Below, piece by piece: positions 8,949-29,759 of a stretch of DNA of 64,000 bases; within the stretch, counting starts at the first letter, position 1; the number at the start of each line of letters is the position of its first letter. A program made the translations under genes and the position numbers. The notes beneath the pieces were generated by a model that was given only the letters and a program-made list of their open reading frames with translations, was not told the origin of the DNA and did no database searches. The DNA is from Pararhizobium sp. YC-54 (lineage in GTDB: Bacteria > Pseudomonadota > Alphaproteobacteria > Rhizobiales > Rhizobiaceae). The DNA lies in contig NZ_JAOYTH010000005.1 in the NCBI RefSeq assembly GCF_025847205.1, forward strand, positions 248,001-312,000. The letters are read 5' to 3'.

Positions 8949-10136
8949 TCAGTCTTCCAGATCTTGAACATCCTGCGCGATATTGGTGACACCGTTGGCT
9001 ATACCGATCGGCCGGGCCACAAACGCCATGAATTTTGAGATATCGACGGACGGATGGCGCGATGCGTAGATAACGTCGCGGCTCTTGACCGGGAAGGTCT
9101 GTCCGACGATCAAGCTGTCGGGCTGGGTCATGTTGAGGCGGTAGACGATTGGATAACGTCCGACGCTATCCGGTGCCATGCCCTTGCGCAGCATCGCATT
9201 GAACCTTTCGGTTCCCAGCAGGCTCATGACGACATCGGGCTCTTCATAACGGAAGACGAAATAGCCCTTGGCGTCGATGGTGGTGTCATTGCCGCCGCCG
9301 GCAAGCGCCACCGCTTCCAGCAGATTGAGCTCGCTGGCGCCGAATTCGACACGTTTGTTGAGCTTGGTCGAACCGAGGACCGTGAAGGTGCGCGGATCGC
9401 GTGTCACGAAAATCTGGTCACCGGGCTGGACGTGAACATTTTCCGACGGATTTTCGATGATCGATTTCAACAGAGCGGTGCCGGTCTTCTTGCCGCGCAC
9501 CAATGTAACGTAGGTTTCATAAGGCTGCGCGACCGGGCCGCCCGCCTTGGCAATGACTTCGTTGATCGTTTCGCTGACCAGGCTCAGAGGCACGACAGAG
9601 GAGCGGCCGACAGCACCCGATACAGTGACGTTGCGCGATGCAGTTGCCAGACTGGTAACGATCACATCCGGCTCGACGGCCTTTTTCACAAGCGCATCGA
9701 GAATTGTCTGGCGCGCCTGTTCCAGGGTCTTGCCTGCAAACTGAACCGGGCCGACATAGGGGATCGTCGCCATACCATTCGGCTGCACGATCAGATCCAT
9801 GTTCGTCTGCTTCGAATCCGTTGTGGAAAACAGACCGTCACTTCCGGCCTCGAAGATAGTGATCTTGAGCGCGTCGCCGACGCCGATAACCACACGGCCG
9901 ACACCGCCACCGATGCCGAAGCGGCGATTGAGCGCTGTTGCCACATAGTCGGAGACGAGCCGCGCCGAACGGGCATTCACATCGACAATGTCATAGGCAA
10001 CTGTGTTTTGCCGGCCAATTTCCTGCGCCGAAAGACCGGCATCCTTGGTAATTGCGGAAGAAAGCGGGCCTTCGCCCGGAACTGCCTGACACCCCGTCAG
10101 AAGGGCGCAAATCAGGATTGCATTCAAACGGCTCAA
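8949..10136 (-). CDS. rkpU: Capsular polysaccharide export outer-membrane lipoprotein (OPX/Wza-KpsD type)
   Basis: A 395-residue outer-membrane polysaccharide export protein. The start has a lipoprotein signal with lipobox LTGC (Cys16). A Poly_export/SLBB arrangement follows: the region around GDALKITIFEAG, then PNGMATIPYVGPVQFAGKTLEQARQ, then repeated SLBB-like segments around FTVLGSTKLN and VEFGASELNLLEAVALAGG. It forms the outer-membrane exit for K-antigen with the KpsE-like protein encoded at 24283-25620. The start is a TTG at 10136 with GGAG 7 nt upstream; no good ATG is available. It is divergent from rkpA. The symbol is given by synteny with the rhizobial rkp-1 locus. Confidence 0.85.
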   Translation of the reverse strand: MSRLNAILICALLTGCQAVPGEGPLSSAITKDAGLSAQEIGRQNTVAYDIVDVNARSARLVSDYVATALNRRFGIGGGVGRVVIGVGDALKITIFEAGSDGLFSTTDSKQTNMDLIVQPNGMATIPYVGPVQFAGKTLEQARQTILDALVKKAVEPDVIVTSLATASRNVTVSGAVGRSSVVPLSLVSETINEVIAKAGGPVAQPYETYVTLVRGKKTGTALLKSIIENPSENVHVQPGDQIFVTRDPRTFTVLGSTKLNKRVEFGASELNLLEAVALAGGGNDTTIDAKGYFVFRYEEPDVVMSLLGTERFNAMLRKGMAPDSVGRYPIVYRLNMTQPDSLIVGQTFPVKSRDVIYASRHPSVDISKFMAFVARPIGIANGVTNIAQDVQDLED

Positions 10137-10552: not shown

Positions 10553-13500
10553 ATGACAGTTGAAATCATAGGGCGCGCATGTCTCGCCCCGGGAGCAAAT
10601 TCGCCGCAGGCGTTGTTTCGAATTTTGCGCCAGGGCAAATGCACCGTCACACGTATTCCGTCCGATCGTTGGGACCTTGCCCGCTTTTGGCACCCTGTCA
10701 TTGGCAACCCGGGCAAGACCTACTCCTTCGCCGCTGGCGTGCTCGACAGTATCTATGATTTCGATCCGGCGGCCTTCGGAATGTCGCAGCGCGAAGCCAT
10801 GTACATGGACCCCCAGCAGCGGGTTTTGTTGCAGCTGGCCTGGCGCGCTCTGGAAGATGCCAATATTTCCGTCCCGTCGCTGCATGGTGAAAATGTCGGC
10901 GTCTATATTGGCGCATCCAGCCTCGACCACGCCAATCTGACCGTCGAGGACCCGGCTGCCGCCGGTCCTTATTTCATGACGGGGAACACGCTCTCGATCG
11001 TTTCCAACCGTATTTCCCACATTTTCGGCCTGAGCGGCCCGAGCATGACGGTGGATACCGCCTGTTCGTCGTCGCTGGTTGCGCTCGACCAGGCGATGCG
11101 CGCGCTGAACGCAGGCGAAATCGACACGGCTATCGTTGGCGGCATCAACGTCCTTGCCCACCCGCTGCCGTTTGTCGGGTTTGCCCAGGCCCGCATGCTT
11201 TCCCCGGAGGGGCTCTGCCGCGCCTATGACAATGACGGCGCCGGCTACGTCCGCGCCGAGGGCGGTGTCGTGTTCGTTCTGCGCCGTTCCGACAGGGCAC
11301 GGCAGGAAAAGGACCGCAGCTACGCCAAGATCGTCGCGACCGGCGTCAATTCCGCCGGGCGCACCAACGGCATTTCACTGCCGTCGCGCGAGGCTCAGGC
11401 CAATCTGCTGCGCTCAATCTATGAGGGCAACAATATCGATTCCAACCAGGTTGCCTTCGTCGAAGGCCACGGGACCGGCACCAAGGTCGGCGACCCCTCC
11501 GAAGTCTGGTCAATCGGAACGGTGATCGGCGCCAACCGGCGTGCGCCGGTACCGATCGGCTCGATCAAATCGAATATCGGCCATACGGAGCCGGCGTCCG
11601 GTCTGTTCGGCATGCTCAAGGCCGTCATGGCGCTTGAAAACAACTACCTTCCAGCGTCGCTGCATTTCGAAACGCCGAACGAGAACATCGATTTCGATGG
11701 GTTGAATGTGCGCGTGACCGCAAACCCGATCGAACTTTTGCGCGGCAAGCGCGCGCGGCTTGCCGGCATCAACTCCTTCGGCTTTGGCGGCGCCAATGCC
11801 CACGTCGTCATCAGCGATCCGGACCCGGTTCAGGACGACCGCAGCCGCAACAACGCCACCGGCCATGTTTTCATGGCAAGCGCCCACACCGTGGGCAGCC
11901 TCGAGGAATTGCTGAAGTCGTACAAATCGACCTTTGCCAAGGCCTCCAAGGACGAGGCGCGCACCATCATCGCCGCGTCCGGCGCCAATCGCACGCAGAT
12001 GCGCCACCGTTTTGCGGCGCGCAGCGACCATCCTGAAGACATCATTCGCGCCATTGCCAGCCACCTCGAAAAGCCGGCGTCCGATATCGGCGAAGCCGGC
12101 GAAGCGGTGACGAAGGATGCGAAGGTTGCCTTCGTCTTCTCCGGCAACGGCTCGCAATGGGCCGGCATGGGGGTCGAGGCCTTCCGCGAAAACCTGCATT
12201 TCCGCCAGTGTTTCACCTCTGTGAGTGCACTGTTCAAATTCCATTCGGACATCGTGCTGACCGATCTGCTGACCGATCCGGATCTGGACAAGAAGCTGTC
12301 CGACACCAAGTTCGCCCAGCCGCTGCTGTTTGCCGTCCAGGCCGCACTGTCGGATTCGCTCGTTGCCATGGGCATCAAGCCAACGGCCGTGTTCGGTCAT
12401 TCCGTCGGTGAAATCGCTGCAGCCTACGCTGCCGGCGCTCTATCGCTCGTCGATGCTGTCTCGATCGTTGCCAAGCGCTCGCTGCACCAGGATTTGCTGG
12501 CTGGCCAGGGCACAATGGCAGCCGTCATGCTCGGCGAAGAGGCTGCAAACGCTTTCGCCAAGTCGCGCGGTCTCGAGCACGTCTGTGTCGCCGCCATCAA
12601 TGCGCACAATTCGGTGACGATTTCCGGCCCGGCGCAGGAGGTTTCCGCCTTCCGCGATGCCGCGCGCAAGGCGAAGATCCCCGTTCAGATTCTCGATATC
12701 AACTATCCGTTCCATCATCCGATCATCGATCGCGCCAAGAAGGCCTTCCTCGCCGATATCCCGGACATCGCGCCGCGCAAATCGGAGCTTGCCTATCTGT
12801 CTACCGTCACCGGCGAGCGGATGGACGGCACGCAGCTTGATCCGGACTACTGGTGGAAGAACGTCCGCGAGCCGGTCCGCTTCCAGGCAGCGACCGAAGC
12901 AGCCATCGAACTCGGCTGCAGCCTGTTCATCGAAATTTCGCCGCGGCCGATCCTCTCGTCCTATCTCAAGGAAACCGTCAAGCAGGCATCGATCCCCGGC
13001 ATGGTCGTCCCGACCTTGCTGCGAGATGTCGGCGAAAAGGGCCAGGACCCCATCTCTCGCGCCATGGCGCGTGCGATCGCCCATGGCGCCGCATTCGACG
13101 AGGCACGCCTGTTCGGCAAACGCAATGCGTTCGTCCGCCTTCCGAACCTGCCGTTCGAACAGACCGAACTGCGCCCGGCATCGACAAGCGATGCGACAGA
13201 CCTGTTTGGCCGCGGCTCCAAGACCCCGTATACGCTGGCAGGCTGGCGAGCCGATCTCAACAGCGGCAGCTGGAAGAACCATATCGACGCACATCTGTTC
13301 CCTGATCTTGCGGAGCACATTGTCGACGGCAAGGCCATCCTGCCCGGCAGCGGCTTCATCGAGATCGCCATCTCCGCCGCGCAGCAATATTATGGCACCA
13401 CAGAGGTCGACATCACCAATCTGGAGATTGTCCGGCCGCTGGAGCTCGCCGACAACCGGATGATGGAACTTTCGACCATCCTGTCGCCAGAAACCGGCGA

Positions 13501-16500
13501 TATCGAAATCCGCTCCCGCGAGCGTCTTTCGGAAGACGATTGGGCGGTGCATGCGGTGGCAAGAAGCCGCAAACCGATTCCCACCGACGGGGTCACCTCC
13601 GGGAACGCCTTTGCCGGCCTTGAAAAAACGGCAACCGTAACGCCTGCAAAAGCCTATGAAACGGCCCGTCACTTCGGTCTGGATTATGGTCCACGCTTCC
13701 AGTTGATGGCAAAGGCCGTCTCCTATGGCGACCGTTTCATCGACGTCGAGCTGAAAGATCCGGAGAGTGCAGGTAACCCCTTCGTCTCCTACAGCCTCAA
13801 TCCGATTTCCGTGGATGCGACCTTCCACGGGCTGGTAGCCTTGTTTGACCGCTTTACCGGCGAAGCCGGCGGCGCACCCTATATTCCGGTGCGCTTCGGC
13901 TCCGTGCGGCTGACCAATTCCGGCCTGACCGTCAAACGCGCCCTGGTCGAGATCCAGCGCATCAGCGCCAATTCGATCAAGGCAACGTTCCGCTTCTTCG
14001 GCAAGTCCGGAGAAGTCATCGCAACATTCGATGATTGCCGGTTCCGCCGGACGTATCTGCGCCAGCACAAGACGCTGGACATGCTGTCCTTCCACTATGA
14101 GGCAGTCCCGTCCGATCGGGCTGCGCCGCTTGCGACGCTGACAAGCCCGAATGCACTGCCCCTGCCGCTGCTTGCTAGAGCAGACGAGAACGGCATCGAC
14201 AATACGACGCTTCTGTTCAACGCGGCGATCTACCGGGCCTGCCACGAAATCGCTCTCAAGCTTGGCAAGGGCACGGCCAAGGTCGATACAAGGTCACTTC
14301 CGGGCGATTTTGCATTCCGCTGCTTCCTCGCCAATTGCCTCTATGTTCTGGAAGACGCAGGCCTGTGCGAACACAAGGGCGGCAGCTGGAAGATAGCGGC
14401 CGAATTTTCGCTTCCTCCCGTCGGTGACATCCTCAAGGAACTCTATGGCGAACGCTCGGAGCGTGCCGTGGAGGCCGTGCTGATCAACAATTCCTACGCT
14501 GAAGCGCTTGATAGAATAGACCGCCTTTTTGCCTCAGAGATATCGGGCAACGAGGCTGAAGTGGCTGCCAAGCCGCAAGGCTTCATCAGCGACGCAACGC
14601 TCGACCACCAGACCGTTCACTCCGAATCCACCCGCCAGCGCATGGATCTGGTTCTGGCGGCGGTCGAAAAGGCACTCACCAGCGAAAACGGCAAAACCGA
14701 CCTGCGGATTGTCGAAGCAGGCACCGTCTCTGCCGGTTTCACCCGCAAGCTCGCAACACTGGCTGCAAAATACAGCGCCAGCCTGATCGTTGTCGAACCG
14801 CGCGAAAATGCCCAGCGCAATCTGGAGATCGCCTTCGAGGAAGACGCCCATGTCCGCGTTCTGAAGAAGGACGCGTTCGCCACACTTCCGGTTTTCGATC
14901 TCGTTGTCAGCGCGTCGGATACTTTTTTCACGCTGATCGATGAAGACGGTGCCATTCGCAACGCACTGCGCGTCTGCCTGCGTGAAAATGGGGCGCTTGT
15001 CGCTGCGGCCAATGCGCCGACAGTGTTCAGCGACTTTGCTTTCGGATTGACCGAGAGCTGGTTTGCCCGCACCCAGGCCGTCGAGTTTCCGATCGGCAAG
15101 CTGGCAACAGTCACGCAATGGCAAAAGGATCTGACCGACCTTGGCCTGCGCGACATCTCTGTCGAAGACCGTGAATTGCCGCATGGCAACATCATCACCG
15201 TCGAAGCGCGAGGTGGCCAGTTTACCGAGGCCACCCAGGCGGCCGAGGCGCAGCCTGCAGAGATTGCAAGGCCGGTTCTTGTCCTGCATGAAGGCAGCGT
15301 TTCGAGCCTGCATAACCAGCTCCCCTCGGGGGATGCCATTCAGGCACCGCTTATCCAGGTGCAGTTGACGGGCGATTTTGAGGCCGACAAGGATAAGATC
15401 GGCGAAGCGATCGCGGGATTGAACGACAAGCCGGTACGGGCGGTCTATCTGTCCGCCCCGACCGCGGCGGACCGCAGCCAGGATTCGGCTGCCCTGCAAA
15501 ATCGCGTCCTGTCGCTCAGCGCCTTTGCCGAAGCATTGCGCCAGCATTATGCACATGCCGAGCCTGCAGCCGATCAGCGGCCCTGCCTGGTAATCGCTGC
15601 TCAAGGTGGCGCACCCGTCACGTTGAGCACGCGCGACAAGGATGTGTCCGGTTCAAGCGTCAATAGCGGCCTGTGGGCATTCGCCCGCGTGCTTCAGAAC
15701 GAATATGATTTCCTCGATATCCATTCGCTCGATTTCACCGGACCCAGGGCCGGAGCCGGCAACCAGCTTGCGGCAGCGATCTCGATGCTGGGCGATACCA
15801 GCGGAAACCGCGAATGGCTGCTGGACGGAGAGAGCGGTATCCTCTCGGAAATCAGGGCCGTACCCGGCCCGGTCGATCAAGGTTTGCGCAAGACCACCGA
15901 CTTCAAGGCCGCGACCATCCGCCAGCGTGTCGCCTCGCAGGTCGGCAGCATTGCCTGGGAACAATCTGAAATCCCGCAGGCAGGCCCGGACGATGTCGTC
16001 GTTGCGGTCGCTGCAACCGGCCTGAACTTCCGCGACGTCATGTGGGCGATGGGCCTTCTGCCGGAAGAAGCGCTGGAAGACGGCTTTGCCGGAGCAACGA
16101 TCGGCATGGAGCTTTCCGGCCATGTCGTCGCCATCGGCAGCAGTGTCAGCGACCTTTCGGTCGGCGATGCCGTGATGGCGATCGCGCCCGCGGCATTTTC
16201 CACCCATGTGGTCGTGTCACGATCGGGTGTCGCCAGACTGCCGGAGACCGTCAGTCCCGTTGCGGCGGCAACCGTTCCGGTTGCTTTCCTCACTGCCTAT
16301 TACGCGATGATCGAGCTCGGCCGCATTCGCGCCGGCGAAACGATCCTGATCCACGGCGCTGCCGGCGGTGTCGGCCTTGCAGCGTTGCAGGTCGCCAAGC
16401 TTTCCGGCGCCAAGGTGATCGCCACGGCGGGAACGCGTGAAAAGCGGCGTTTCCTGAAGATGCTCGGCGCCGATCACGTCTTTGATTCACGTTCGCTGGC

Positions 16501-18136
16501 CTTCGTCAACGACATCCTTGGCGTCACTGGCGGCGAAGGCGTGGATCTGGTCCTGAACTCGCTGTTTGCCGAAGCCATGGAACAGAGCCTGTCGCTGGTA
16601 AAGCCATTTGGCCGCTTCCTCGAACTTGGCAAGCGTGACTACTACGCCGACAGCAAGATCGGCCTTCGGCCGTTCCGGCGCAACATCAGCTACTTCGGCA
16701 TCGACGCCGATCAGCTTCTGGTCAACGCACCGGACCTGACGAAGCGGATTTTCACCGAAATCGGTGCGCTGTTCGAAGAAGGCAAGCTTGTGCCTCTTCC
16801 CTACCGCGCCTTCGGTTTCGACGAAATCGGCAACGCCTTCCGCCTGATGCAGAACGCCGGCCATATCGGCAAGATCGTCGTGCTGCCGCCTGTTGCCGGA
16901 CGCGATGAAGTTTCCAACAAGCCCGCTGGGCGCATGTCGGTCGATAGCCTCGGCGTGCATCTGGTCGTTGGCGGCATCGGCGGGTTCGGTCTGGCGGCTG
17001 CCAGCTGGCTGGTCGACAAGGGCGCGCGCAACATCGCGCTCGCCACGCGCCGCGGCATTGCCGACATCGAGACGCTTGAAGCGATCAAGCGCTGGGAAAA
17101 CATGGGCGTCTCGGCGACCATCCACGCCTGCGACGTGACGGACGAGGCTGCAGCGGACACTCTGCTGAAAACGCTTCGGCAGATCGGTCCCCTGAAGACC
17201 ATCGTTCACGCCGCCATGGTTCTCGATGACGCGTTGATCAACAATCTCAGCCGCGAGCGCAACCGCCCGGTCATCGACGTGAAGGCGCAGGGCGCCGCCG
17301 TTCTCGACCGGTTGACACGCGCCGACGCGCTCGAACACTTCATCATGTTCTCGTCGGCAACGACATTGGTCGGCAACCCCGGCCAGGCCAATTACGTGGC
17401 CGCCAACGGCTATCTCGAGGGCCTTGCCCGTGCCCGCAGGCTTGAAGGCCTGCCGGGTCTCGCCATCGGCTTCGGCGCGATCGCCGACAAGGGCTATCTG
17501 GCGCAGAACACCGAGGTCAACGATCTGCTCTCCAAGCGCATCGGCAAGACGGCGCTGAAGGCACAGTCCGCCCTCGACCAGGTCGAGAGCTACATCCGCT
17601 CCGATCCGGGCACTGTCGATGCCGCCGTGGCAATGGTTTCGGAACTCGACTGGGCGGCTGCACGCAACCTGCCTGTTGTCCGCAATGCCCTTTTCGAGGT
17701 CATCCTGCGAACAGCCGATCAGCATTCCACCGGTGGCGACGGCACGACCATGGATCTTGTGGCGATGATCGATGGAAAATCGGCGCAAGAGGCCGAAGAT
17801 ATCCTCTATGACCTGGTCGCCAGCGAAATTGCCGCTATCCTGCGCGTGTCGAAGGATACGATTTCGCGCAACAAGGTTCTGAAGGAAATCGGTCTCGACA
17901 GCCTGATGGCCGTGGAACTGGGGATCAGCTTCCAGCAGAATACCGGCTTTGACATGCCGCTGAGTGGCGTTGCCGACAATACGACTGTTGGCGATGTCGC
18001 ACGCAAGCTTTATGACAAGGTCAGCAAGCGGGATCACGGCAGCGACGAAGACAGCGAGCCAGCCGACAACAAGATCGTCAACGAGCTCGCCCAGCGCCAT
18101 ACCGGCACCGGTACGGAGAAGGCAGCGAGCCAATGA
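10553..18136 (+). CDS. rkpA: Type I polyketide/fatty-acid synthase-like megasynthase of the K-antigen locus
   Basis: A 2527-residue multidomain synthase. Ketosynthase: active-site C171 in DTACSSS with H306 and H344. Acyltransferase: GHSVGE with S617. Dehydratase: H922 in HIVDGKAILPG and D1088. A degenerate methyltransferase-like segment spans about 1365-1520. Enoylreductase spans about 1800-2110, with the NADPH loop HGAAGGVG near 1932. Ketoreductase spans about 2130-2310, with GGIGGFG and Y2281. The C-terminal acyl carrier domain has phosphopantetheine site S2450 in GLDSL. No thioesterase follows the carrier, so release must be by another enzyme. This is a fully reducing iterative synthase, expected to make a saturated or modified acyl chain in the cytoplasm for the lipid part of K-antigen. 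The gene overlaps rkpG by 4 nt. The start ATG has only a weak ribosome-binding site. Confidence 0.9.
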   Translation: MTVEIIGRACLAPGANSPQALFRILRQGKCTVTRIPSDRWDLARFWHPVIGNPGKTYSFAAGVLDSIYDFDPAAFGMSQREAMYMDPQQRVLLQLAWRALEDANISVPSLHGENVGVYIGASSLDHANLTVEDPAAAGPYFMTGNTLSIVSNRISHIFGLSGPSMTVDTACSSSLVALDQAMRALNAGEIDTAIVGGINVLAHPLPFVGFAQARMLSPEGLCRAYDNDGAGYVRAEGGVVFVLRRSDRARQEKDRSYAKIVATGVNSAGRTNGISLPSREAQANLLRSIYEGNNIDSNQVAFVEGHGTGTKVGDPSEVWSIGTVIGANRRAPVPIGSIKSNIGHTEPASGLFGMLKAVMALENNYLPASLHFETPNENIDFDGLNVRVTANPIELLRGKRARLAGINSFGFGGANAHVVISDPDPVQDDRSRNNATGHVFMASAHTVGSLEELLKSYKSTFAKASKDEARTIIAASGANRTQMRHRFAARSDHPEDIIRAIASHLEKPASDIGEAGEAVTKDAKVAFVFSGNGSQWAGMGVEAFRENLHFRQCFTSVSALFKFHSDIVLTDLLTDPDLDKKLSDTKFAQPLLFAVQAALSDSLVAMGIKPTAVFGHSVGEIAAAYAAGALSLVDAVSIVAKRSLHQDLLAGQGTMAAVMLGEEAANAFAKSRGLEHVCVAAINAHNSVTISGPAQEVSAFRDAARKAKIPVQILDINYPFHHPIIDRAKKAFLADIPDIAPRKSELAYLSTVTGERMDGTQLDPDYWWKNVREPVRFQAATEAAIELGCSLFIEISPRPILSSYLKETVKQASIPGMVVPTLLRDVGEKGQDPISRAMARAIAHGAAFDEARLFGKRNAFVRLPNLPFEQTELRPASTSDATDLFGRGSKTPYTLAGWRADLNSGSWKNHIDAHLFPDLAEHIVDGKAILPGSGFIEIAISAAQQYYGTTEVDITNLEIVRPLELADNRMMELSTILSPETGDIEIRSRERLSEDDWAVHAVARSRKPIPTDGVTSGNAFAGLEKTATVTPAKAYETARHFGLDYGPRFQLMAKAVSYGDRFIDVELKDPESAGNPFVSYSLNPISVDATFHGLVALFDRFTGEAGGAPYIPVRFGSVRLTNSGLTVKRALVEIQRISANSIKATFRFFGKSGEVIATFDDCRFRRTYLRQHKTLDMLSFHYEAVPSDRAAPLATLTSPNALPLPLLARADENGIDNTTLLFNAAIYRACHEIALKLGKGTAKVDTRSLPGDFAFRCFLANCLYVLEDAGLCEHKGGSWKIAAEFSLPPVGDILKELYGERSERAVEAVLINNSYAEALDRIDRLFASEISGNEAEVAAKPQGFISDATLDHQTVHSESTRQRMDLVLAAVEKALTSENGKTDLRIVEAGTVSAGFTRKLATLAAKYSASLIVVEPRENAQRNLEIAFEEDAHVRVLKKDAFATLPVFDLVVSASDTFFTLIDEDGAIRNALRVCLRENGALVAAANAPTVFSDFAFGLTESWFARTQAVEFPIGKLATVTQWQKDLTDLGLRDISVEDRELPHGNIITVEARGGQFTEATQAAEAQPAEIARPVLVLHEGSVSSLHNQLPSGDAIQAPLIQVQLTGDFEADKDKIGEAIAGLNDKPVRAVYLSAPTAADRSQDSAALQNRVLSLSAFAEALRQHYAHAEPAADQRPCLVIAAQGGAPVTLSTRDKDVSGSSVNSGLWAFARVLQNEYDFLDIHSLDFTGPRAGAGNQLAAAISMLGDTSGNREWLLDGESGILSEIRAVPGPVDQGLRKTTDFKAATIRQRVASQVGSIAWEQSEIPQAGPDDVVVAVAATGLNFRDVMWAMGLLPEEALEDGFAGATIGMELSGHVVAIGSSVSDLSVGDAVMAIAPAAFSTHVVVSRSGVARLPETVSPVAAATVPVAFLTAYYAMIELGRIRAGETILIHGAAGGVGLAALQVAKLSGAKVIATAGTREKRRFLKMLGADHVFDSRSLAFVNDILGVTGGEGVDLVLNSLFAEAMEQSLSLVKPFGRFLELGKRDYYADSKIGLRPFRRNISYFGIDADQLLVNAPDLTKRIFTEIGALFEEGKLVPLPYRAFGFDEIGNAFRLMQNAGHIGKIVVLPPVAGRDEVSNKPAGRMSVDSLGVHLVVGGIGGFGLAAASWLVDKGARNIALATRRGIADIETLEAIKRWENMGVSATIHACDVTDEAAADTLLKTLRQIGPLKTIVHAAMVLDDALINNLSRERNRPVIDVKAQGAAVLDRLTRADALEHFIMFSSATTLVGNPGQANYVAANGYLEGLARARRLEGLPGLAIGFGAIADKGYLAQNTEVNDLLSKRIGKTALKAQSALDQVESYIRSDPGTVDAAVAMVSELDWAAARNLPVVRNALFEVILRTADQHSTGGDGTTMDLVAMIDGKSAQEAEDILYDLVASEIAAILRVSKDTISRNKVLKEIGLDSLMAVELGISFQQNTGFDMPLSGVADNTTVGDVARKLYDKVSKRDHGSDEDSEPADNKIVNELAQRHTGTGTEKAASQ

Positions 18137-19548
18137 GCAAGAACGAGGAACGCAACAACGTTTCGAAGATGAACAGCAGCCTGAAGGAAAATCTCGTGGA
18201 CAAGATGCGCAGCGCGCATCAGTCTTCCGAGCGGAACCGCATGGCACGTTCCGAACGCGACGTTCCTCCCCCGGTCAGGCGCAAGCAGACGCGGTTCGAG
18301 GATTTGCCGGAATATAAGCAGGTCCAGACCCAGAAGATGGCCAGTGAGCAGCTGGGTATCGACAACCCCTTCCACCGGGCTCACCAGACGGCAGCCGGTG
18401 CGACGACGGTGATCGACGGACGCAAGCTGATCAATTTCGCATCCTATGATTATCTCGGCCTCAACCGGCATCCGCATGTTCTGGCCCAGGCCCGCGATAC
18501 CATCAACACCTTCGGCATCTCGGCATCCGCCAGCCGGCTCGTGGCAGGCGAGCGCCCGGCCCACGCCGAACTGGAAGAGCGCATCGCCGCTTTCTACGGC
18601 GTCGAAGCATCCGTCTGCTTCGTCAGCGGTTATCTGACCAATGTCACGGCGATCAGCTGTCTGATGGGTCCGCAGGACCTCGTCGTGCATGACGAGTTCA
18701 TTCACAACAGTGCACTTGCCGGTATCAAACTGTCCGGTGCCACCCGGCGCCTGTTCAAGCACAATGACGCAAACGACCTGGAACACGTACTGCGCACGGT
18801 TGCCGGGGAATATCGCCGCATCCTGGTGATCGTCGAGGGCGTCTATTCGATGGACGGCGATATCGCCAACCTGCCGGCGATCATGAAGCTCAAGGCCGAA
18901 TACGGTTTCTGGCTGATGGTCGACGAAGCTCATTCTCTCGGTATTCTCGGCAAGCGCGGCAAGGGCACGTTCGAGCATTTCGGCATCGACCCCCGCCAGG
19001 TCGATATCTGGATGGGAACGCTCTCCAAGACGACATCGAGTTGCGGCGGCTATATCGCCGGCAGTGGCGCTCTGGCAGCTGTGCTCAAGGCAACCGCCGG
19101 CGGTTTCGTCTATAGCGTCGGCCTCGCGCCCGTCCTGACCGCATCCGCCATCGCAAGCCTCGATATTGTCGAAAGCGAGCCGGAACGCGTGGCGGCCTTG
19201 AGACGCAACGGGTCGCTTTTCCTGAAGCTTGCCCAGGAAGCCGGCCTCGATACGGGCCTGAGCGCGGGCTTCTCGGTGGTTCCGGTTCTGGTCGGTGACT
19301 CGCTCCGTGCTGTACAGCTGTCGAACGATCTCCTTGCGGCCGGCATCAACGCCTTGCCGATCATCCATCCCGCGGTTCCGGAAGGAATGGCGCGTCTGCG
19401 GTTCTTCATCACCAGCGAACATACCGAGGAACAGATCCGCCAGACGGTGGCGATGACGGCTGAAAAGCTCAAGGATCTCACCGAGCGGAATTTCGGTCTC
19501 GCATCGATCGATGTCCAGCAGATGATGAAGATGCTGGCCTCCCGATAA
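18133..19548 (+). CDS. rkpG: Alpha-oxoamine synthase family acyltransferase
   Basis: A 471-residue PLP enzyme of the alpha-oxoamine synthase family (relatives: 8-amino-7-oxononanoate synthase, serine palmitoyltransferase, 2-amino-3-ketobutyrate CoA ligase). These condense an acyl thioester with an amino acid, with loss of carbon dioxide or CoA. Visible: NFASYDYLGL, the PLP-ring aspartate in VDEAHSLG, and the Schiff-base lysine K299 in GTLSKTTSSCGGY. An N-terminal extension of about 100 polar residues precedes the catalytic fold, longer than in BioF. It overlaps rkpA by 4 nt. I infer that it off-loads the RkpA-bound chain onto an amino acid, giving a 3-ketosphinganine-like or amino-ketone product; the amino acid partner is not visible. 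Confidence 0.85.
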   Translation: MSKNEERNNVSKMNSSLKENLVDKMRSAHQSSERNRMARSERDVPPPVRRKQTRFEDLPEYKQVQTQKMASEQLGIDNPFHRAHQTAAGATTVIDGRKLINFASYDYLGLNRHPHVLAQARDTINTFGISASASRLVAGERPAHAELEERIAAFYGVEASVCFVSGYLTNVTAISCLMGPQDLVVHDEFIHNSALAGIKLSGATRRLFKHNDANDLEHVLRTVAGEYRRILVIVEGVYSMDGDIANLPAIMKLKAEYGFWLMVDEAHSLGILGKRGKGTFEHFGIDPRQVDIWMGTLSKTTSSCGGYIAGSGALAAVLKATAGGFVYSVGLAPVLTASAIASLDIVESEPERVAALRRNGSLFLKLAQEAGLDTGLSAGFSVVPVLVGDSLRAVQLSNDLLAAGINALPIIHPAVPEGMARLRFFITSEHTEEQIRQTVAMTAEKLKDLTERNFGLASIDVQQMMKMLASR

Positions 19549-19591
19549 GTCCGGTGAGCGGCTACTCCACGAACCGGACCGGTCTTGCGGC

Positions 19592-20392
19592 ATGACTCAT
19601 GTGATCATTACGGGCGGCTCGAGCGGGATAGGTTTGGCGCTGGCACGCATTTACGCCGCACGCGGCGCGCGCATATCGCTTCTGGCACGCTCCCTGCCGG
19701 CACTCGAGGCGGCCAGGACCGAACTTGCCAAAGGCCGTAGCGAAGACGCGATCCGCATCGAAAGTGCCGATGTTGCCGACGAAGATCAGACATTGGCCGC
19801 AATCCGCAAATGCGAAGACGCCTTCGGCCCCTGTGACATCCTGATCACCTCGGCGGGAATTGTCGAACCCGGACGGTTCGACACGCTGTCGTCAGCTGCC
19901 TTCAATCGTCAGCTCCAGACAAACCTTTCCGGCAGCGTCCATGCGGTGCGCGCTGTGTATGCGGGGATGAAAGAACGGCGTGCCGGCCGGATCATGCTGG
20001 TATCGTCCGGCGCCGGCTTGATCGGCATCTATGGCTATACGGCCTATTGTGCCTCGAAGTTTGCCCTGCACGGTTTCGCCGAGGCTCTGCGCTCGGAAGC
20101 AAAACCGCATGGCGTCTGCATTTCCGTCTGCTTTCCGCCCGATACCGAAACGCCGCAGTTTTCCCGCGAACTGGAACAGCGCCCGCTTGAAGCAGCAGTG
20201 GTCATGGGACGGGTTGCTCCATGGTCCTCCGCTACTGTTGCGCTCCGCATTGCGCGCGCCATCGACAAAGGTAAATTCGAGGTGTTTTTCGGCTGGTCGC
20301 TGTGGGCGCTCGGACGTTTGGGCTCCGCGGTCAAACCGGTTCTCAACTGGTGGTTCGACCGGGCCATCCAACGAATAAGCGGCCGGCACTGA
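19592..20392 (+). CDS. rkpH: Short-chain dehydrogenase/reductase of the K-antigen locus
   Basis: A 266-residue classical SDR. The NAD(P)-binding motif TGGSSGIG is at residues 7-14, NxAG appears as TSAG, and the catalytic YxxxK is in YTAYCASKFALHG with an upstream catalytic serine (VSSGAGL). Its closest functional parallels by fold and context are 3-ketodihydrosphingosine reductases and other ketoreductases. Following an oxoamine synthase, the natural reaction would be reduction of the new ketone. It lies 43 nt after rkpG in the same operon. The C-terminal tail is hydrophobic (ALGRLGSAVKPVLNWWF), which may associate with the membrane, as in KDSR-type enzymes. Confidence 0.82.
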   Translation: MTHVIITGGSSGIGLALARIYAARGARISLLARSLPALEAARTELAKGRSEDAIRIESADVADEDQTLAAIRKCEDAFGPCDILITSAGIVEPGRFDTLSSAAFNRQLQTNLSGSVHAVRAVYAGMKERRAGRIMLVSSGAGLIGIYGYTAYCASKFALHGFAEALRSEAKPHGVCISVCFPPDTETPQFSRELEQRPLEAAVVMGRVAPWSSATVALRIARAIDKGKFEVFFGWSLWALGRLGSAVKPVLNWWFDRAIQRISGRH

Positions 20393-20502: not shown

Positions 20503-22104
20503 TTGGCGTTGACGTCGCTCCACATGCACTACCATCCGGTAACGCTGACCTTCCTCTGCTACGCGCTGGCCTGTGCAGTCATCCTGTACACGGACAAGTT
20601 TGCCTTGCCCGCACGCGAACGCCGCAGACACCGGCCGCCGTTCAGCCGCCGGCGTGCGACTGTTGATATGCTGTCGCGCCTGCCGATCATTGCCCTCGTC
20701 TTTGCAGGCTTCTTTGCGATTTCCTGGCGCCCGCTCTATGCAAGCGCCGGCGCCATGAGCTTCTTCGTCATCTTCACCGGCATATCCCGGGCCAAATACA
20801 AATTCATTCGCGAACCTCTGGTCTTTTCGGACATCGCCCTGGTCGCCGACGTATTCAAGTACAAGTCGATCTTCTACGCCAACTCGCTCAATATCGTTTT
20901 CTGGGTAGTCGCCTTCCTGTATGTCTTCGGCGTCTCGGCGCTGTACATGTATTTCGAGCCCAGTGTCCTGCCCGCCAGCCACAAGCTCCTCTGGATCATC
21001 CTGATGATCCTGGTCGCCGACCTGCCCTGGATCTTGTTGTTCTACGGCCCTGTCAACCGGCCGGTGGCTGACTTCGTGCAGCACCTTGTCGGCAAGCCGA
21101 ACGTCAAGGTCAGCACCATCCGATTCGGAACCTTCGCGTCCGTCATCTTCCATTTCATCCTCTGGCTCGGCCGGCGCCGCGAAAAGATCGTTGCCGAGCT
21201 GCAGGAACGCTTCTTCGCCGCCGTCCACGACCTGATCGGTCACGACGCCGACAACAAGGCGCCGCTGGTCATTGTCTGGCAGTCGGAATCCTTCATCGAC
21301 ATGCGCCATTGCGGGGTAGACAGCATCAAGCTGCCGGCCATCGACAGGCTGCAGAAGCTTGCCGTGCAATGGGGCCGCCTGGCAACGGTCTTCGAGGGTG
21401 GCTACACGTTGCGCACGGAGTTCGCAGTGTTGAGCGGCCTGGTTCCCGACGATCTGCATATCGATGCAAGTTATCCCTACCTGCGGGCGAGCCATTATAC
21501 CGACGTCGTCTGGCCGACGAAGCTGAAGAATGCGGGCTGGAGCACGCATTTCATGCACCCGTATGACCGGACGTTTTTCCTTCGCCACAAAGCCATGCCG
21601 CAGCTCGGCTTCGAAAAGATGACCATGCTCGATGAATTCGAGCACGATCCGGCCCGCGATGGCCCCTATGTCTCGGACGCTGCGTTGACCAGAAAGGTCA
21701 TCGCCGAGGTGGAAAGCCAGACGGACGACAAGGGCAGCTTTCTCTTCGTTGCATCGATGGCCAACCACGGGCCGTGGGAGCCCAACCGCGTCGAAGGAAT
21801 GGCCGATCCTGTGGCGATCTATCTCGATATCCTGCAGCAGTCCGACAAGGCGCTGGGTGAACTTGTCGACCATCTGAACAGGCTCGACCGCCCCGTCTGG
21901 ATGGTTTTCTACGGTGACCACGCGCCGCTGCTGAAATCCTTTGCCGACCCCTTCCCCGATCCCCGCACCGATTATTTCATCGTCCCCCTGGCAGCCGCGC
22001 GCACACCGCAGAATGCTCCGTCGTTTCCGCGTAATGAGGAACCGTGGAAACTGCTGGAAGCCATGCTGAAACATGCCAATCTGCACAGGGATGATCTGCG
22101 ATAG
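20503..22104 (+). CDS. rkpI: LTA-synthase/sulfatase-family membrane protein
   Basis: A 533-residue protein with about five N-terminal membrane segments (residues 10-170) and a C-terminal alkaline-phosphatase-superfamily domain. Metal and catalytic signatures are present: WQSESFID (first metal ligand), GGYTLRTEF (nucleophilic threonine region), ANHGPW and FYGDHAP near the end. Relatives include lipoteichoic acid synthase and phosphoethanolamine or phosphoglycerol transferases, so transfer of a phospho-group onto a glycolipid outside the inner membrane is likely. The start is a TTG at 20503 with AAGGT about 8 nt upstream; the next in-frame ATG (20524) lacks a ribosome-binding site. It belongs to the rkpAGHIJ operon. 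Confidence 0.8.
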   Translation: MALTSLHMHYHPVTLTFLCYALACAVILYTDKFALPARERRRHRPPFSRRRATVDMLSRLPIIALVFAGFFAISWRPLYASAGAMSFFVIFTGISRAKYKFIREPLVFSDIALVADVFKYKSIFYANSLNIVFWVVAFLYVFGVSALYMYFEPSVLPASHKLLWIILMILVADLPWILLFYGPVNRPVADFVQHLVGKPNVKVSTIRFGTFASVIFHFILWLGRRREKIVAELQERFFAAVHDLIGHDADNKAPLVIVWQSESFIDMRHCGVDSIKLPAIDRLQKLAVQWGRLATVFEGGYTLRTEFAVLSGLVPDDLHIDASYPYLRASHYTDVVWPTKLKNAGWSTHFMHPYDRTFFLRHKAMPQLGFEKMTMLDEFEHDPARDGPYVSDAALTRKVIAEVESQTDDKGSFLFVASMANHGPWEPNRVEGMADPVAIYLDILQQSDKALGELVDHLNRLDRPVWMVFYGDHAPLLKSFADPFPDPRTDYFIVPLAAARTPQNAPSFPRNEEPWKLLEAMLKHANLHRDDLR

Positions 22105-22135
22105 TGCCGGCGCTCTTCTCAAAGGTTCGGTGACG

Positions 22136-23434
22136 ATGGCATTGCAAAATGCACCGGAGCGGCGCGTCTTCCTCTTCCTGCAGGGCCCATCCTCGCCCAT
22201 CTTTGCCAAGATCGCCGACCGGCTGGAGATCATGGGTCATGAATGCCTGAGGATCAACCTCAATCCTGGCGACCAGATCTTCTGGCGGCGCAAGGGCGGC
22301 TATAATTACCGCGGCCGGGGCGGAAACGCCTGGCATGCCCATGTTGGCGCCTTCATGGATCGGCATGCGGTCACCGATCTCGTCCTGTTAGGCGAGGAGC
22401 GTCCCTACCATCTCGTTGCACTCGAAGCTGCCAGGAGCCGGAAGATAGCGGTTTCAGTTGTCGAGATGGGCTATCTGCGGCCGGACTGGCTGACGGTCGA
22501 ACGCGATGGAATGTCGTCCAATTCGCACTTTCCCAACGATCCCCAGCAGATCGTCGATGCGGCCCGTACCCTTGCCGAACCGGACTGGAAGAGACGTTAT
22601 ACGCAGAGTTTTGCTGCCGAAGCGGCCTACGACCTTCTCTACAATCTGCCGAACGTTTTCCTGTGGTTCCTCTTTCCGCACTATCGCCGCCACGCCCTGT
22701 TCCATCCGTTGGCAGAGTATGCCGGCTGGGTGATGCGGCTGGCGGGTAGCAAGAAAAGAAAATTGGATGCAGCAATGCGTGTTGAGCGCGCGCTTACCGG
22801 CGACGCCCCGTTTTTTGTCCTCCCGTTGCAACTGCAAACCGATTTTCAGCTGCGATCACATTCGCCCTACACCGATCAACGCGAGGCAATCACCGAGGTG
22901 ATCACCTCCTTCGCCACCCATGCCCCGCGCACGGCCCAACTGATTGTCAAAATACACCCGCTCGACAACGGGCTCATCAACTGGCGGGCCCATGTCGAGG
23001 CGTTGGCAACCAGACTTGGGATTGGCGGGCGCGTGCAGTTTATTGATGGCGGCGACCTGAACGCGCTGCTGGGCAAAACCGTCGGCGTCGTCACGATCAA
23101 CTCCACCGTCGGGCTCCATGCCTTACAGCTCGGCAAACCCGTGAAGGTGCTGGGAACGGCCGTCTTCGACATTGCTGGCCTCAGCGATCAGACAGAGCTT
23201 GATCAGTTCTGGGCAGCTCCGGCACACCCCCGGGAACCGGTCCGGACCGCCTTTTTCCGTCTGCTTGCGGCGGCAATCCAGGTCAGGGGCAATTTCTACT
23301 CGGCGGCTGGCACGGATGCCGGCGCGGAGGCGATCGCGGAAAGACTGCACAACCGATCGGTCAATCAGCCCGGCGGCTTCGTCGATCCCCCTCCGCGCAA
23401 GAAACCGTCAAAAATCAGTCTTCGTCCTCATTGA
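22136..23434 (+). CDS. rkpJ: KpsS-like capsular polysaccharide biosynthesis protein
   Basis: A 432-residue protein of the Capsule_synth (KpsS/KpsC) family, cytoplasmic glycosyltransferases that in Escherichia coli build the beta-Kdo linker on lyso-phosphatidylglycerol. Family features: FLQGPSSPIFAKIAD at the N-terminus, the INLNPGDQIFW and NYRGR region typical of KpsS, VEMGYLRPDW, VKIHPLDNG and the C-terminal INSTVGLHALQLGKPVKVLG motif. It is likely to act on the lipid anchor with the KpsC-like protein at 27218-28543. An ATG at 22136 with AAAGG upstream is preferred to the earlier ATG at 22073, which would overlap rkpI by 32 nt. Its 3' end overlaps the opposing acyltransferase by 20 nt. Confidence 0.82.
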   Translation: MALQNAPERRVFLFLQGPSSPIFAKIADRLEIMGHECLRINLNPGDQIFWRRKGGYNYRGRGGNAWHAHVGAFMDRHAVTDLVLLGEERPYHLVALEAARSRKIAVSVVEMGYLRPDWLTVERDGMSSNSHFPNDPQQIVDAARTLAEPDWKRRYTQSFAAEAAYDLLYNLPNVFLWFLFPHYRRHALFHPLAEYAGWVMRLAGSKKRKLDAAMRVERALTGDAPFFVLPLQLQTDFQLRSHSPYTDQREAITEVITSFATHAPRTAQLIVKIHPLDNGLINWRAHVEALATRLGIGGRVQFIDGGDLNALLGKTVGVVTINSTVGLHALQLGKPVKVLGTAVFDIAGLSDQTELDQFWAAPAHPREPVRTAFFRLLAAAIQVRGNFYSAAGTDAGAEAIAERLHNRSVNQPGGFVDPPPRKKPSKISLRPH

Positions 23435-24282: not shown

Positions 24283-25620
24283 CTAGGTGCGGTCGCGAAT
24301 ATTATAATAACCCATGACAAAAACAGCCCATGCGAAGAGCAAGCCCAGCGCCACCAGGAATGAATTCAGGAAGCGTGCGGGGTACTGTGCCAATTGCGAA
24401 AGCGTTGGCTCGATGAAGACTGCAAGGTAACGCTGCTTGTTGTTCGCATCGATGCGCGCCTTTTCGAGGCTGCTCAGGGATGCGGTGTAGGCACGCTCGG
24501 CGAATTCGCGCTCGGTTTCCAAAATTTCGTATTTCTGAATCCGGCCGGCAACATCACCGTTGGCTTCCGTGGATTGGCCGTCTGCGCTCCCGCTCCCCAG
24601 GCGCTGGCGCTCGGATGCAAGCTGCTCCTCGACGCTGGCAATACGCGCCTTCAGCACACGCATGCGCGGCGTGTCGTCGCTCATTTGCGATTTCGCCGTT
24701 GCGAGATCGGCATTCAGCTGCACCAATTGGGCCTCCAGTCCGCCAATCAATTGAGCCGCGAGCTTGGCACCTTCCACTGGGTCAACTTCCTGCGAGGCAT
24801 CGCGATACTGACGCACGGCCACGCGCGCCTTGGCAAGACGGTTCTCTGCAAGGTGCATTTCATCCTGCGCGGCCTTGAGGACACCGTCACGGGCCGATGC
24901 GGAGAGATCGTTGATCAGGGCTTCACCCTGCTGAATGACGAATTTGGCAATCTCCTGCGATTGCTGGGGATCAAATGCCTTGACCTGCAACTGCATGATT
25001 CCCGACGCATGATCGAAATTGATGTCGATCATGCTGCGCCAATACTCAAGCTTGTTTTCCACTGGCAGGCCGGGCGCCATTCCGTAGAAGTAATCCAGGC
25101 CCCGCGCTGCGTAGATTTTTTCGAGATCGAATTTCTTCTCGACTTCGGTCAGCATCCTTTCACTACGAACGAAATCCATCAGAATGTAGCTATCGGAGAC
25201 CGTATTGCCCGTCGATGCCTGCGAAAACATCCCGAGAATATCGGGTGCGCTGGCTGCCTCGATGCTGCGAACCGAAAAGGACGCCGAACTATGATACTGA
25301 TCGGAGGCGACGAAGACCATATAGACCGATGCCAGCACGGCGGGAAATGCGACGAAAGCCAAAAGGCTGCCGATGATCATGGCATGACGCAGCCGGATCG
25401 AACTCAGCCAACCCCGTTTTGTGACTTGATGGGTGATGACCTTGTGGAGCTTGTTGGGAGCTTTCGCCTTTAGCTTTGGCGCCAGCACACGATCATCGTT
25501 TCCAAGCAGCCCTTCAAGCAGGTGTACGCTTTTCGACTTGACGACATCCGTGTTTTTCAGCCGATCCACAGCCCCATCCTTTTGCGCAGCCCCTGGAGCC
25601 GCATTCCCGATGGTTGCCAT
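24283..25620 (-). CDS. rkpR: Capsule export inner-membrane protein, KpsE type (polysaccharide co-polymerase)
   Basis: A 445-residue PCP-family protein. A long cytoplasmic N-terminal tail (about 70 residues) precedes the first membrane helix (about 80-110, IGSLLAFVAFPAVLASVYMV). A periplasmic domain with extended coiled coil (about 220-380) follows, then the second helix close to the C-terminus (LNSFLVALGLLFAWAVFVMGY). The motif ALINDLSASARDGVL is typical of KpsE/BexC/CtrB proteins. It bridges the ABC exporter and the OPX protein RkpU. It directly abuts the kpsT-like gene (stop to start without a gap), and the kpsT stop is adjacent to its ATG. The symbol is by similarity to rhizobial rkpR/kpsE. 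Confidence 0.83.
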   Translation of the reverse strand: MATIGNAAPGAAQKDGAVDRLKNTDVVKSKSVHLLEGLLGNDDRVLAPKLKAKAPNKLHKVITHQVTKRGWLSSIRLRHAMIIGSLLAFVAFPAVLASVYMVFVASDQYHSSASFSVRSIEAASAPDILGMFSQASTGNTVSDSYILMDFVRSERMLTEVEKKFDLEKIYAARGLDYFYGMAPGLPVENKLEYWRSMIDINFDHASGIMQLQVKAFDPQQSQEIAKFVIQQGEALINDLSASARDGVLKAAQDEMHLAENRLAKARVAVRQYRDASQEVDPVEGAKLAAQLIGGLEAQLVQLNADLATAKSQMSDDTPRMRVLKARIASVEEQLASERQRLGSGSADGQSTEANGDVAGRIQKYEILETEREFAERAYTASLSSLEKARIDANNKQRYLAVFIEPTLSQLAQYPARFLNSFLVALGLLFAWAVFVMGYYNIRDRT

Positions 25621-26280
25621 TTATCGTTCCCTCATATTGCCATTGTGAGCGCGGATCGCGTCTTCAATATCATCATAATAGGTTAATTTGCCATTTTCCA
25701 TAACCACCCCGCAATCACAATAATCGCGAATGGTCGAGGTGCTGTGAGACACCATGATCACATCGGAATCCTGAAGCCTGCTTTCGAACACGACTTGGCA
25801 CTTCTTCTTGAAGTTCGTATCCCCGACAGCGGTAATCTCATCGACGAGATAATAGTCAAAATTGACGCCCATGCTCAATCCAAAAGCAAGACGGGCCTTC
25901 ATCCCGGAGGAATAGGTCCCCACCGGCGCCTTGAAGAACGGCCCCAGATCGGCAAAATCCTCGACATAGGCGATCAGTTCACGGGTATCCACGCCATAGA
26001 TGCGCGCAACAAAGCGAACATTCTGCTCGCCTGTCATGGTCCCTTGAAAGCTCCCCTGAAACCCGAGCGGCCAGGAAATCTTGCCCTTGCGGATGATCCT
26101 GCCGCTATCCAGCCTGATCGTACCGGCAATCAGCCGAAGCAGCGTGGATTTTCCTGCACCGTTGCGGCCGAGCAGGCCAATGCTCTTTCCTCGCTGCAAA
26201 ACAAGCGAAGCGCGATCAATGATCGGCTTTTTGATGCCTTTCGTGCGCGCGAACTTGGTCGCTTGCTCAAGCCTGATCAT
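25621..26280 (-). CDS. rkpS: Capsule exporter ATP-binding protein, KpsT type
   Basis: A 219-residue ABC ATPase of the polysaccharide-export subfamily. Walker A is GLLGRNGAGKST (about residues 35-46), the signature is degenerate (TYSSGMKAR) as in KpsT/BexA, Walker B is YLVDEITAVGD, and the switch histidine is in VSHS. The short length and the absence of a C-terminal carbohydrate-binding domain match the K-antigen type rather than the Wzt O-antigen type. It overlaps kpsM by one nucleotide (TAATG). It powers export through the KpsM-like channel. Confidence 0.87.
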   Translation of the reverse strand: MIRLEQATKFARTKGIKKPIIDRASLVLQRGKSIGLLGRNGAGKSTLLRLIAGTIRLDSGRIIRKGKISWPLGFQGSFQGTMTGEQNVRFVARIYGVDTRELIAYVEDFADLGPFFKAPVGTYSSGMKARLAFGLSMGVNFDYYLVDEITAVGDTNFKKKCQVVFESRLQDSDVIMVSHSTSTIRDYCDCGVVMENGKLTYYDDIEDAIRAHNGNMRER

Positions 26281-27050
26281 TATTCACTTCTCAACAATGC
26301 GGACGATGACGTGAACAACAGCATTCCAATAAACAATGTCAAAAATGCGAAAGTATAGGCATAGGGCATATCAAGGCCCACCGCCCGATATTCACTGTAG
26401 AAACCCACCCGAAACTGCATGACCACATGGACAAGCGGATTGAAAAGCACCACTTCCCTATAGGGGTGCGGGATAGCGTCGGGAAGGAAGAAGACGCCGG
26501 AAATCAGAAAAAGAGGCCGGTTGACGATACTGAATACCTGCTCATACAGCGCGTATTTCAAAAACATGACATTGTTAATTAACGCCATGCCAAGCCCCAG
26601 GGTGCTTGCGACAAGAGCCGCTTCGATGATTGGCGGCCAGGACAGCTCGATAGGCGTGCGCATCCACGCGACAATAACCCCGAGAACAACGATCGCCACG
26701 ACCGCCGTCGTGCCCAGTTGCAGGAAATATCGGGCAACGATCGTGTCAACCGGCGCCACACTGGGGTAACTGAGCAAGGACCTGTTCGCCTTGACCGCGC
26801 CGTTCAAATAGGTCGCCATCGCCTGGTAGAACTGGAACCCGATATAGCCGGTTGCGAAGAACAATGGGAAACTGACGCCCAGGGCGGGCGCGCGCGCTAT
26901 AGCCTGAAATATGATCGTCATCAGGAACACGTGCGCGGCCGGATCGAGCAAGGCCCAGACATAGCCTCCCGGCTTGCTGCCGAACCGCGCTTCCATTTCG
27001 CGAATGAGCAAGGCAGCGACAACCCGCATATGTGTTAAGACATGTTCCAA
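26280..27050 (-). CDS. rkpT: Capsule exporter permease, KpsM type
   Basis: A 256-residue ABC-2 permease with six membrane segments, short cytosolic N-terminus (MRVVAALLIREMEARFGSKPGGYVWALLDP) and the conserved LFNPLVHVVMQFRVGFY region near residue 200-220. This is the standard fold and length of KpsM/BexB. A methionine at residue 8 is an alternative start. It lies downstream of the KpsC-like gene after a 167-bp gap, so a separate promoter there is possible. It forms the inner-membrane channel for the finished polysaccharide. Confidence 0.85.
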   Translation of the reverse strand: MEHVLTHMRVVAALLIREMEARFGSKPGGYVWALLDPAAHVFLMTIIFQAIARAPALGVSFPLFFATGYIGFQFYQAMATYLNGAVKANRSLLSYPSVAPVDTIVARYFLQLGTTAVVAIVVLGVIVAWMRTPIELSWPPIIEAALVASTLGLGMALINNVMFLKYALYEQVFSIVNRPLFLISGVFFLPDAIPHPYREVVLFNPLVHVVMQFRVGFYSEYRAVGLDMPYAYTFAFLTLFIGMLLFTSSSALLRSE

Positions 27051-29596: not shown

Positions 29597-29759
29597 ATCG
29601 ACTTGCCTGAGACCCATGATCGCCACTCCAAAAGCACAACGTCGCATCCGGTTATAACCAGAGCGCCCTCAGATCAAACCAAAACGGCCAAAGTGCGCTT
29701 TTTTCGGAGAAAATGCGAAACCACCAGAACTTTCAGCCCGAGAAAATCGGATTCCGGCG

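Follow-up and report, generated by a model that had tools for sequence, protein, structure and literature searches.

The 64,000-nucleotide stretch analyzed here (the window; positions 248,001 to 312,000 of contig NZ_JAOYTH010000005.1 from Pararhizobium sp. YC-54) carries five rkp genes on its forward strand: rkpA (10553..18136), rkpG (18133..19548), rkpH (19592..20392), rkpI (20503..22104, read from an uncertain TTG start codon) and rkpJ (22073..23434). This is also their order in Sinorhizobium meliloti Ak57, where rkpI is unannotated. Judged by the families and residues of its enzymes, the rkpA-rkpG-rkpH assembly line very probably makes a sphingolipid-like molecule, and this product could be the lipid that serves these bacteria as starting point and anchor of their capsule. 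An initial annotation had located the first three genes at the same positions, and the catalytic residues that it named are all in place.

The RkpA-RkpG-RkpH assembly line

RkpA, a protein of 2527 residues, is predicted to be an iterative, fully reducing type I polyketide synthase (PKS) or fatty acid synthase. Pfam families follow each other in the order KS, AT, DH, ER, KR and ACP, and C171, S617, H922, D1088, Y2281 and S2450 are all present in fitting surroundings. No thioesterase is detected by Pfam; nothing is matched after the ACP domain, and 43 residues remain C-terminal of that match. The domain order first put forward is thus confirmed, together with the lack of a thioesterase. The methyltransferase placed in brackets between DH and ER was not found: residues 1168-1800 (633 residues) match no Pfam family at E ≤ 1 and no PDB entry at E ≤ 0.01. 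By eye, a part of this region resembles a degenerate Rossmann methyltransferase.

The rkpG gene overlaps rkpA by 4 nt and encodes an α-oxoamine synthase (AOS), a pyridoxal phosphate (PLP) enzyme with the catalytic lysine K299, as the initial annotation had it. In serine palmitoyltransferase (SPT), the PLP lysine and its partners are H159, D231, H234 and K265 (PMC6148460). Their counterparts in RkpG, H191, D264, H267 and K299, are invariant in 26 aligned relatives. A His-Ala-Ser triad is called strictly conserved in the AOS family (PMC6148460), whereas RkpG has His-Asn-Ser. When RkpG is compared with the SPT signature residues, as had been suggested, the lysine and its partners are therefore kept and the triad is replaced. 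The phylogenetic tree of 56 AOS sequences, which is rooted only at its midpoint and has three sequences of the own genome on long branches, places the 12 canonical SPTs in a clade of their own (100/99), apart from RkpG. A smaller AOS clade stands next to the RkpG clade (85/88), and the two are united at 100/99. The His-Asn-Ser triad is found in 39 of the 41 sequences of these two clades (L046 and L048 give no motif match); the 12 SPTs and three other AOS sequences have His-Ala-Ser, one of the 15 being His-Ser-Ser. In two loci, L053:9473-13297 and L055:6833-11037, a member of the smaller clade has no PKS neighbor and an RkpH-type reductase lies a few kb away; perhaps these genes belong to a further sphingoid pathway that draws on ordinary fatty acids.

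RkpG scores below the cut-offs of the curated NCBIfam models for SPT (302, 276 and 214 bits against 640, 500 and 670). Its highest curated score, to the BioF model, is also under the cut-off. RkpG was accordingly rejected as a canonical SPT, BioF, KBL or ALAS, as it falls below every curated cut-off and is separate from the SPT clade. The same cut-offs are missed by three relatives, one each from Pseudomonas putida, a Pseudomonas plasmid and Burkholderia, so that the rejection by the SPT models says little against the use of serine.

The pairing of RkpG with a PKS extends well beyond the window. A sample of 398 genomes of the phylum, which includes the own genome, contains RkpG relatives (E ≤ 1e-90) in 23 genomes. 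An RkpA-like PKS adjoins the relative in all 18 places, outside the own genome, where it scores at least 350 bits; in G324 one gene lies between the two, and in G169 they are fused. The weaker relatives (E ≤ 1e-90, below 350 bits) have a PKS neighbor in one of six places, and another has only an 82-bit KS match about 8 kb away. The three other AOS-like genes of the own genome have none, one of them with a 36-bit match to the ER-KR part nearby. Because a PKS stands beside all of the strong relatives, as against one in six and none in three, the pairing is not due to chance. A wider contig search, in which the best 80 of 524 RkpG relatives were analyzed, found an RkpA-like PKS in 66 loci, an RkpI relative in 32, a Kps gene in 32 and one or the other of the latter two in 53; for the 49 of these loci with full flanks the numbers are 46, 28, 23 and 41. 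The 14 loci without a PKS come from Planctomycetota (11), Cyanobacteria (2) and Nitrospira (1). The planctomycete and cyanobacterial AOS genes of the RkpG clade, which have no RkpA-like PKS match in the stretch examined, are those of L135, L141, L142, L144, L145, L147-L149, L151, L153-L155 and L157.

An assembly line of this kind has been described in Pseudomonas fluorescens MYb115, in which the iterative PKS SgaA and the oxoamine synthase SgaB produce C24, C26 and C28 sphinganines (Peters et al. 2025, PMC12134224). SgaB is a proven SPT that converts L-serine and acyl-CoA into 3-ketosphinganines and is virtually exclusive for serine over alanine and glycine; the reductase SgaC was proposed by homology and context. 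Three more compounds, heavier by 154 Da, are most likely phosphoglycerol sphingolipids, and 6101 sga-homologous clusters, dominantly in Burkholderia, were counted (PMC12134224). RkpG shares its clade with AOS enzymes encoded beside a PKS in Pseudomonas, for which the loci L029 and L078 serve as a proxy for SgaB of MYb115, and shares 50% identity with one member of that clade, the AOS from a capsule-type locus on a Pseudomonas plasmid.

The third gene product, RkpH, is a short-chain dehydrogenase/reductase (SDR) according to Pfam, as had been claimed, and is a candidate for the 3-ketosphinganine reductase type. Its close relatives of named origin come from Pararhizobium, and in the databases they carry names such as 3-dehydrosphinganine reductase and follicular variant translocation protein 1, the latter of which we take to be FVT-1. 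FVT-1 is the mammalian 3-ketosphinganine reductase (PMC6148460). A profile was built from seven RkpH-type sequences, of which three are encoded next to other AOS genes. Among the 345 PDB chains that it matches at E ≤ 1e-20, TSC10 (8jat), a 3-ketodihydrosphingosine reductase of solved structure, ranks first, at E 1e-43 over positions 2-232 of 265. The sequence of reactions from PKS to oxoamine synthase to ketoreductase that the initial annotation suggested is supported by SgaA, SgaB and the proposed SgaC, by the RkpG clade and by the match of RkpH-type proteins to TSC10.

RkpI and the capsule genes

The initial annotation did not include RkpI. A profile of 40 RkpI sequences finds the phosphoglycerol transferase GacH as its best PDB match (E 1.1e-35), followed by LtaP and LtaS. 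In an alignment of 58 proteins, conservation reaches 95% or more at E262, T302, H422, D472 and H473; their roles as metal ligands and nucleophile are presumably those of LtaS. By its family and its conserved residues, RkpI is predicted to be a membrane protein with a GacH/LtaS-type phosphoglycerol transferase domain. Phosphoethanolamine transferase was considered as another assignment and rejected, as none of the nine PDB matches at E ≤ 0.01 is so named (one is uncharacterized and one is an arylsulfatase). GacH and LtaS act on a cell-wall glycan or on lipoteichoic acid, whereas the substrate proposed for RkpI is a sphingoid base. This would be the step that turns the amino-alcohol into a phospholipid acceptor.

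The distribution of RkpI ties it to both of its proposed partners. In the 398 genomes, a sphingoid source was defined as a member of the RkpG clade of at least 350 bits or a match of at least 400 bits to the SPT model, a KpsS-type gene as a PF05159 match of at least 150 bits, and an RkpI relative as a match of at least 85 bits. These thresholds were set after the lists had been seen, and genome G031, at 81.6 bits, is just under the last one. The KpsS-type calls rest on PF05159, which spans KpsS and KpsC alike. Of the 18 genomes in which a KpsS-type gene and a sphingoid source occur together, 14 contain an RkpI relative, the own genome included. Such a relative is found in none of 39 genomes with the KpsS-type gene only, in 1 of 33 with the source only and in 3 of 308 with neither. 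Fisher's test for both partners against the rest gives 4e-19, uncorrected for the kinship of the genomes. At the level of families the comparison is 8 of 10 against 0 of 11 (p 2e-4), with families f1 and f2 standing on both sides. At E ≤ 1e-12 and without a bit threshold, 32 of the 398 genomes have a match to RkpI, and many of these are partial matches of 53-70 bits in the own family.

In all 14 genomes that have an RkpI relative together with both partners, at most about 5 kb separate this relative from a PF05159 gene. Three of them (G303, G317 and G327) have a canonical SPT in place of RkpG. No RkpI relative was seen within about 10 kb on each side of the KpsS-type gene in the 19 loci read from the 39 KpsS-type-only genomes, three of which (L166, L168 and L170) have a contig end near the gene. 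No Kps gene was seen near the RkpI relative in the three genomes with neither partner. A held-out sample of 80 genomes of the class, 12 already seen and 68 new, added two RkpI relatives. G433 fits fully: a single locus there contains PKS, AOS, SDR, KpsS-type and RkpI-type genes. Among the 68 new genomes, RkpI occurs in the single one with both partners and in none of six with the source only; there are no KpsS-type-only genomes at 150 bits.

As a separate observation, in the loci L066, L067 and L068 the RkpI relative adjoins the KpsS-type gene in genomes that have a canonical SPT and no RkpG; possibly these encode SPT-fed, sphingolipid-anchored capsules.

By its gene content, the rkp operon with its flanks is an ABC-transporter-dependent capsule locus of the group 2 type. 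RkpJ is a Capsule_synth (PF05159) protein according to Pfam and is taken to be of the KpsS type. The flanking genes are all on the reverse strand. Upstream of rkpA lies a gene for a polysaccharide export protein with Poly_export and SLBB domains (8949..10136), probably rkpU, in a position that matches that of the annotated export protein of S. meliloti Ak57. Downstream of rkpJ, a gene that may be KpsE-like by position (24283..25620; no Pfam family at E ≤ 0.001, Wzz at E 0.12) is followed by genes that domain searches assign to the ATPase (25621..26280) and the ABC-2 permease (26280..27050) of a capsule export transporter, to a second Capsule_synth (PF05159) protein, perhaps KpsC-like (27218..28543), and to a KpsF-type sugar-phosphate isomerase with SIS and CBS domains (28607..29647), which would supply 3-deoxy-D-manno-oct-2-ulosonic acid (Kdo). 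This set of genes, from the two Capsule_synth proteins and the isomerase to the transporter and the export protein, resembles that of the E. coli group 2 capsules. E. coli uses phosphatidylglycerol (PG) or lyso-PG (PMC7694667, PMC10433991), whereas a sphingoid counterpart is proposed here.

The arrangement varies among relatives. The rkpI stretch of S. meliloti Ak57 (L032:17260-18953) reads in two overlapping frames. In G265 (L033), of the same family as the host of the window, rkpA, rkpG and rkpH are present with neither rkpI nor rkpJ adjoining; its PF05159 genes are located on separate contigs, and a search of the genome gave no RkpI relative.

A proposed route to the capsule anchor

The gene order, the intact active-site residues, the family relations and the co-occurrence, all of which are observed directly, are consistent with the following route. 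RkpA would iterate to build a long saturated acyl chain on its own ACP domain. RkpG would release this chain by decarboxylative condensation with L-serine, giving 3-ketosphinganine, and RkpH would reduce the ketone to sphinganine. RkpI would then transfer phosphoglycerol, most likely from PG, to the 1-hydroxyl. The resulting phosphoglycerol-sphinganine would be a one-chain phospholipid, the sphingoid counterpart of lyso-PG. RkpJ would add the first Kdo to its glycerol, a KpsC-type enzyme would extend the chain, and the ABC exporter would take the polymer out. In Pseudomonas the first two steps have been demonstrated, together with a product that is most likely the same as the one of the RkpI step; these would apply here by analogy. 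We infer that the rhizobial enzymes carry out the same reactions, that RkpI is the enzyme of the fourth step and that its product is the acceptor of the fifth. It is on balance probable that rkpAGHI makes phosphoglycerol-sphinganine and that the K-antigen is built on this lipid. The idea of an amino-alcohol lipid as anchor or precursor of the K-antigen is thereby supported, and its tie to the capsule is strengthened by RkpI and the KpsS-type context; the nature of the rhizobial product is deduced from sequence.

Several points weigh against this route. LtaS-type domains usually act outside the cytoplasmic membrane. KpsS adds Kdo to PG or lyso-PG at the inner face of the membrane, where KpsC extends the chain (PMC7694667, PMC10433991). 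The RkpI step can precede the RkpJ step only if the lipid is flipped in between, and this is a weak point. The K-antigen of S. meliloti 1021, for the secretion of which the rkp-1 cluster is required according to the title of one paper, is cited in later papers as a phospholipid-anchored polymer of Kdo. This citation counts in favor of a phospholipid acceptor; the published anchor itself could contradict a sphingoid one. RkpJ scores 205 bits against the NCBIfam KpsS equivalog cut-off of 600. The relation of RkpH to TSC10 weakens with other queries: a profile of 23 rhizobial RkpH sequences puts TSC10 only 11th, and a search with the single RkpH sequence leaves it outside the top 60. Loci of the Pseudomonas and Burkholderia type encode an SDR of another subfamily, 27-30% identical to RkpH, and of the 23 genomes in which RkpG has a relative, only 6 also have one of RkpH (E ≤ 1e-30). 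Four of the 18 genomes with both partners (G103, G167, G262 and G265) have no RkpI relative. Conversely, G324, G154, G213 and G397 carry one without the pair of partners, as does the held-out G404, which has neither partner and whose assembly consists of 810 contigs with 7% contamination.

It is possible, and rather unlikely, that the sphingoid base is made but serves as a free lipid of the membrane or as an aid to export, the K-antigen being built on ordinary PG or lyso-PG as it is by KpsS in E. coli (PMC7694667). The sphinganines of MYb115 were indeed found as free lipids (PMC12134224), and the rhizobial capsular polysaccharide is cited just as phospholipid-anchored. A free lipid would not predict that RkpI depends on the presence of the two partners together, the sphingoid source and the KpsS-type gene. 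Furthermore, all of the rkp-1 genes were reportedly found by Kiss in 1997 to be needed for K-antigen. They are also held to be so in PMC3557214.

An exchange of anchors is improbable. The KpsS- and KpsC-type enzymes would then build the polymer on PG inside the cell and, after export, RkpI would move phosphoglycerol together with the capsule from PG to sphinganine. This would suit the usual outside location of LtaS-type domains and would give the same co-occurrence of RkpI. The rkp-1 mutants are said to keep the polymer inside the cell (Muller, in 2009), which points to a role before export, and we know of no LtaS-type enzyme that transfers so large a group. Least probable of all is the use by RkpG of glycine, alanine or another mode of release, giving an aminoketone or a 1-deoxy base: the low scores to the SPT models, the top rank of BioF and the His-Asn-Ser triad would suit it, but the AOS enzymes of matching Pseudomonas and Burkholderia loci share this profile and triad, SgaB takes L-serine almost exclusively (PMC12134224), and RkpI would need the 1-hydroxyl.

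Related loci and a proposed sphingolipid-capsule link

The rkp system would be a variant of the pathway described in Pseudomonas in 2025, to which the capsule-anchor reading with RkpI is added here. The rkp genes resemble sgaABC in having a PKS, an oxoamine synthase of the same clade (by the L029 and L078 proxy) and an SDR nearby. The sga lipids, a class of long-chain sphinganine and probable phosphoglycerol-sphinganine, are treated as secondary metabolites (PMC12134224), whereas the rkp genes lie in a K-antigen locus and include an SDR of another subfamily. The main text of that paper has no match to "capsul", "rkp" or "rhizobi". The capsule-anchor reading with RkpI was not found in the literature searched, which left most subscription journals outside. 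With the same reach, no work joining capsular polysaccharide, sphinganine and a lipid anchor was found, and the papers that touch on KpsS, sphingolipids and capsules appeared to be unrelated.

Capsule genes are also present in the Pseudomonas loci. Pseudomonas sp. TMW 2.1634 and P. putida 31753 (L078) have the order PKS, AOS, PhyH, KpsC-like, GNAT, LTA-synthase-like, SDR and KpsS-type. The locus tags of sgaB and sgaC in MYb115 (RS19800 and RS19775) leave room for four genes between them, as in the Pseudomonas plasmid, provided that tags are numbered in steps of five. Among the best 80 of 524 relatives, 21 loci have both an LTA-synthase-like gene and an SDR gene, and in all of them the two are at most 2 kb apart. 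A gene of the phytanoyl-CoA dioxygenase family follows the AOS gene in Pseudomonas (L029:16243-17286; L078, near 12.7 kb) and is listed also for L117, L118, L120 and L136, with weaker matches in some Halomonadaceae loci. Perhaps it encodes a hydroxylase of the sphingoid base.

PKS loci linked to capsules have been named wcb in Burkholderia and rkp in Nitrosomonas and Rhizobium (PMC3908369). As in the window, capsule genes are accompanied in these loci by a PKS and by an AOS that falls in the same clade (L030, L031, L109 and L112), and the Burkholderia-type loci differ in having an LpxC-family gene and a GNAT gene beside the AOS gene. The LpxC-family deacetylase gene adjoins it in L030:13887-14801 and L031:13907-14833, the GNAT gene usually being on the other side; among the best 80 of 524 relatives, an LpxC-family gene stands beside the AOS gene in 11 loci, such as L105, L112 and L128.

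The proposed route names a product for the rkp genes and links the rhizobial K-antigen with the newly found PKS-made sphingolipids. It also offers a reason for the probable phosphoglycerol on those lipids, and RkpI-type enzymes would be the link of sphingolipid with capsule in many Gram-negative bacteria. More tentatively, with a chance somewhat short of even, capsules with a phosphoglycerol-sphingoid anchor may form a widespread class, in which the base comes from a PKS with an RkpG-type enzyme or from an SPT, and an RkpI-type enzyme either makes the acceptor or moves the finished capsule. If this is true, the "secondary metabolite" sphingolipids of Pseudomonas would be precursors of a capsule anchor.

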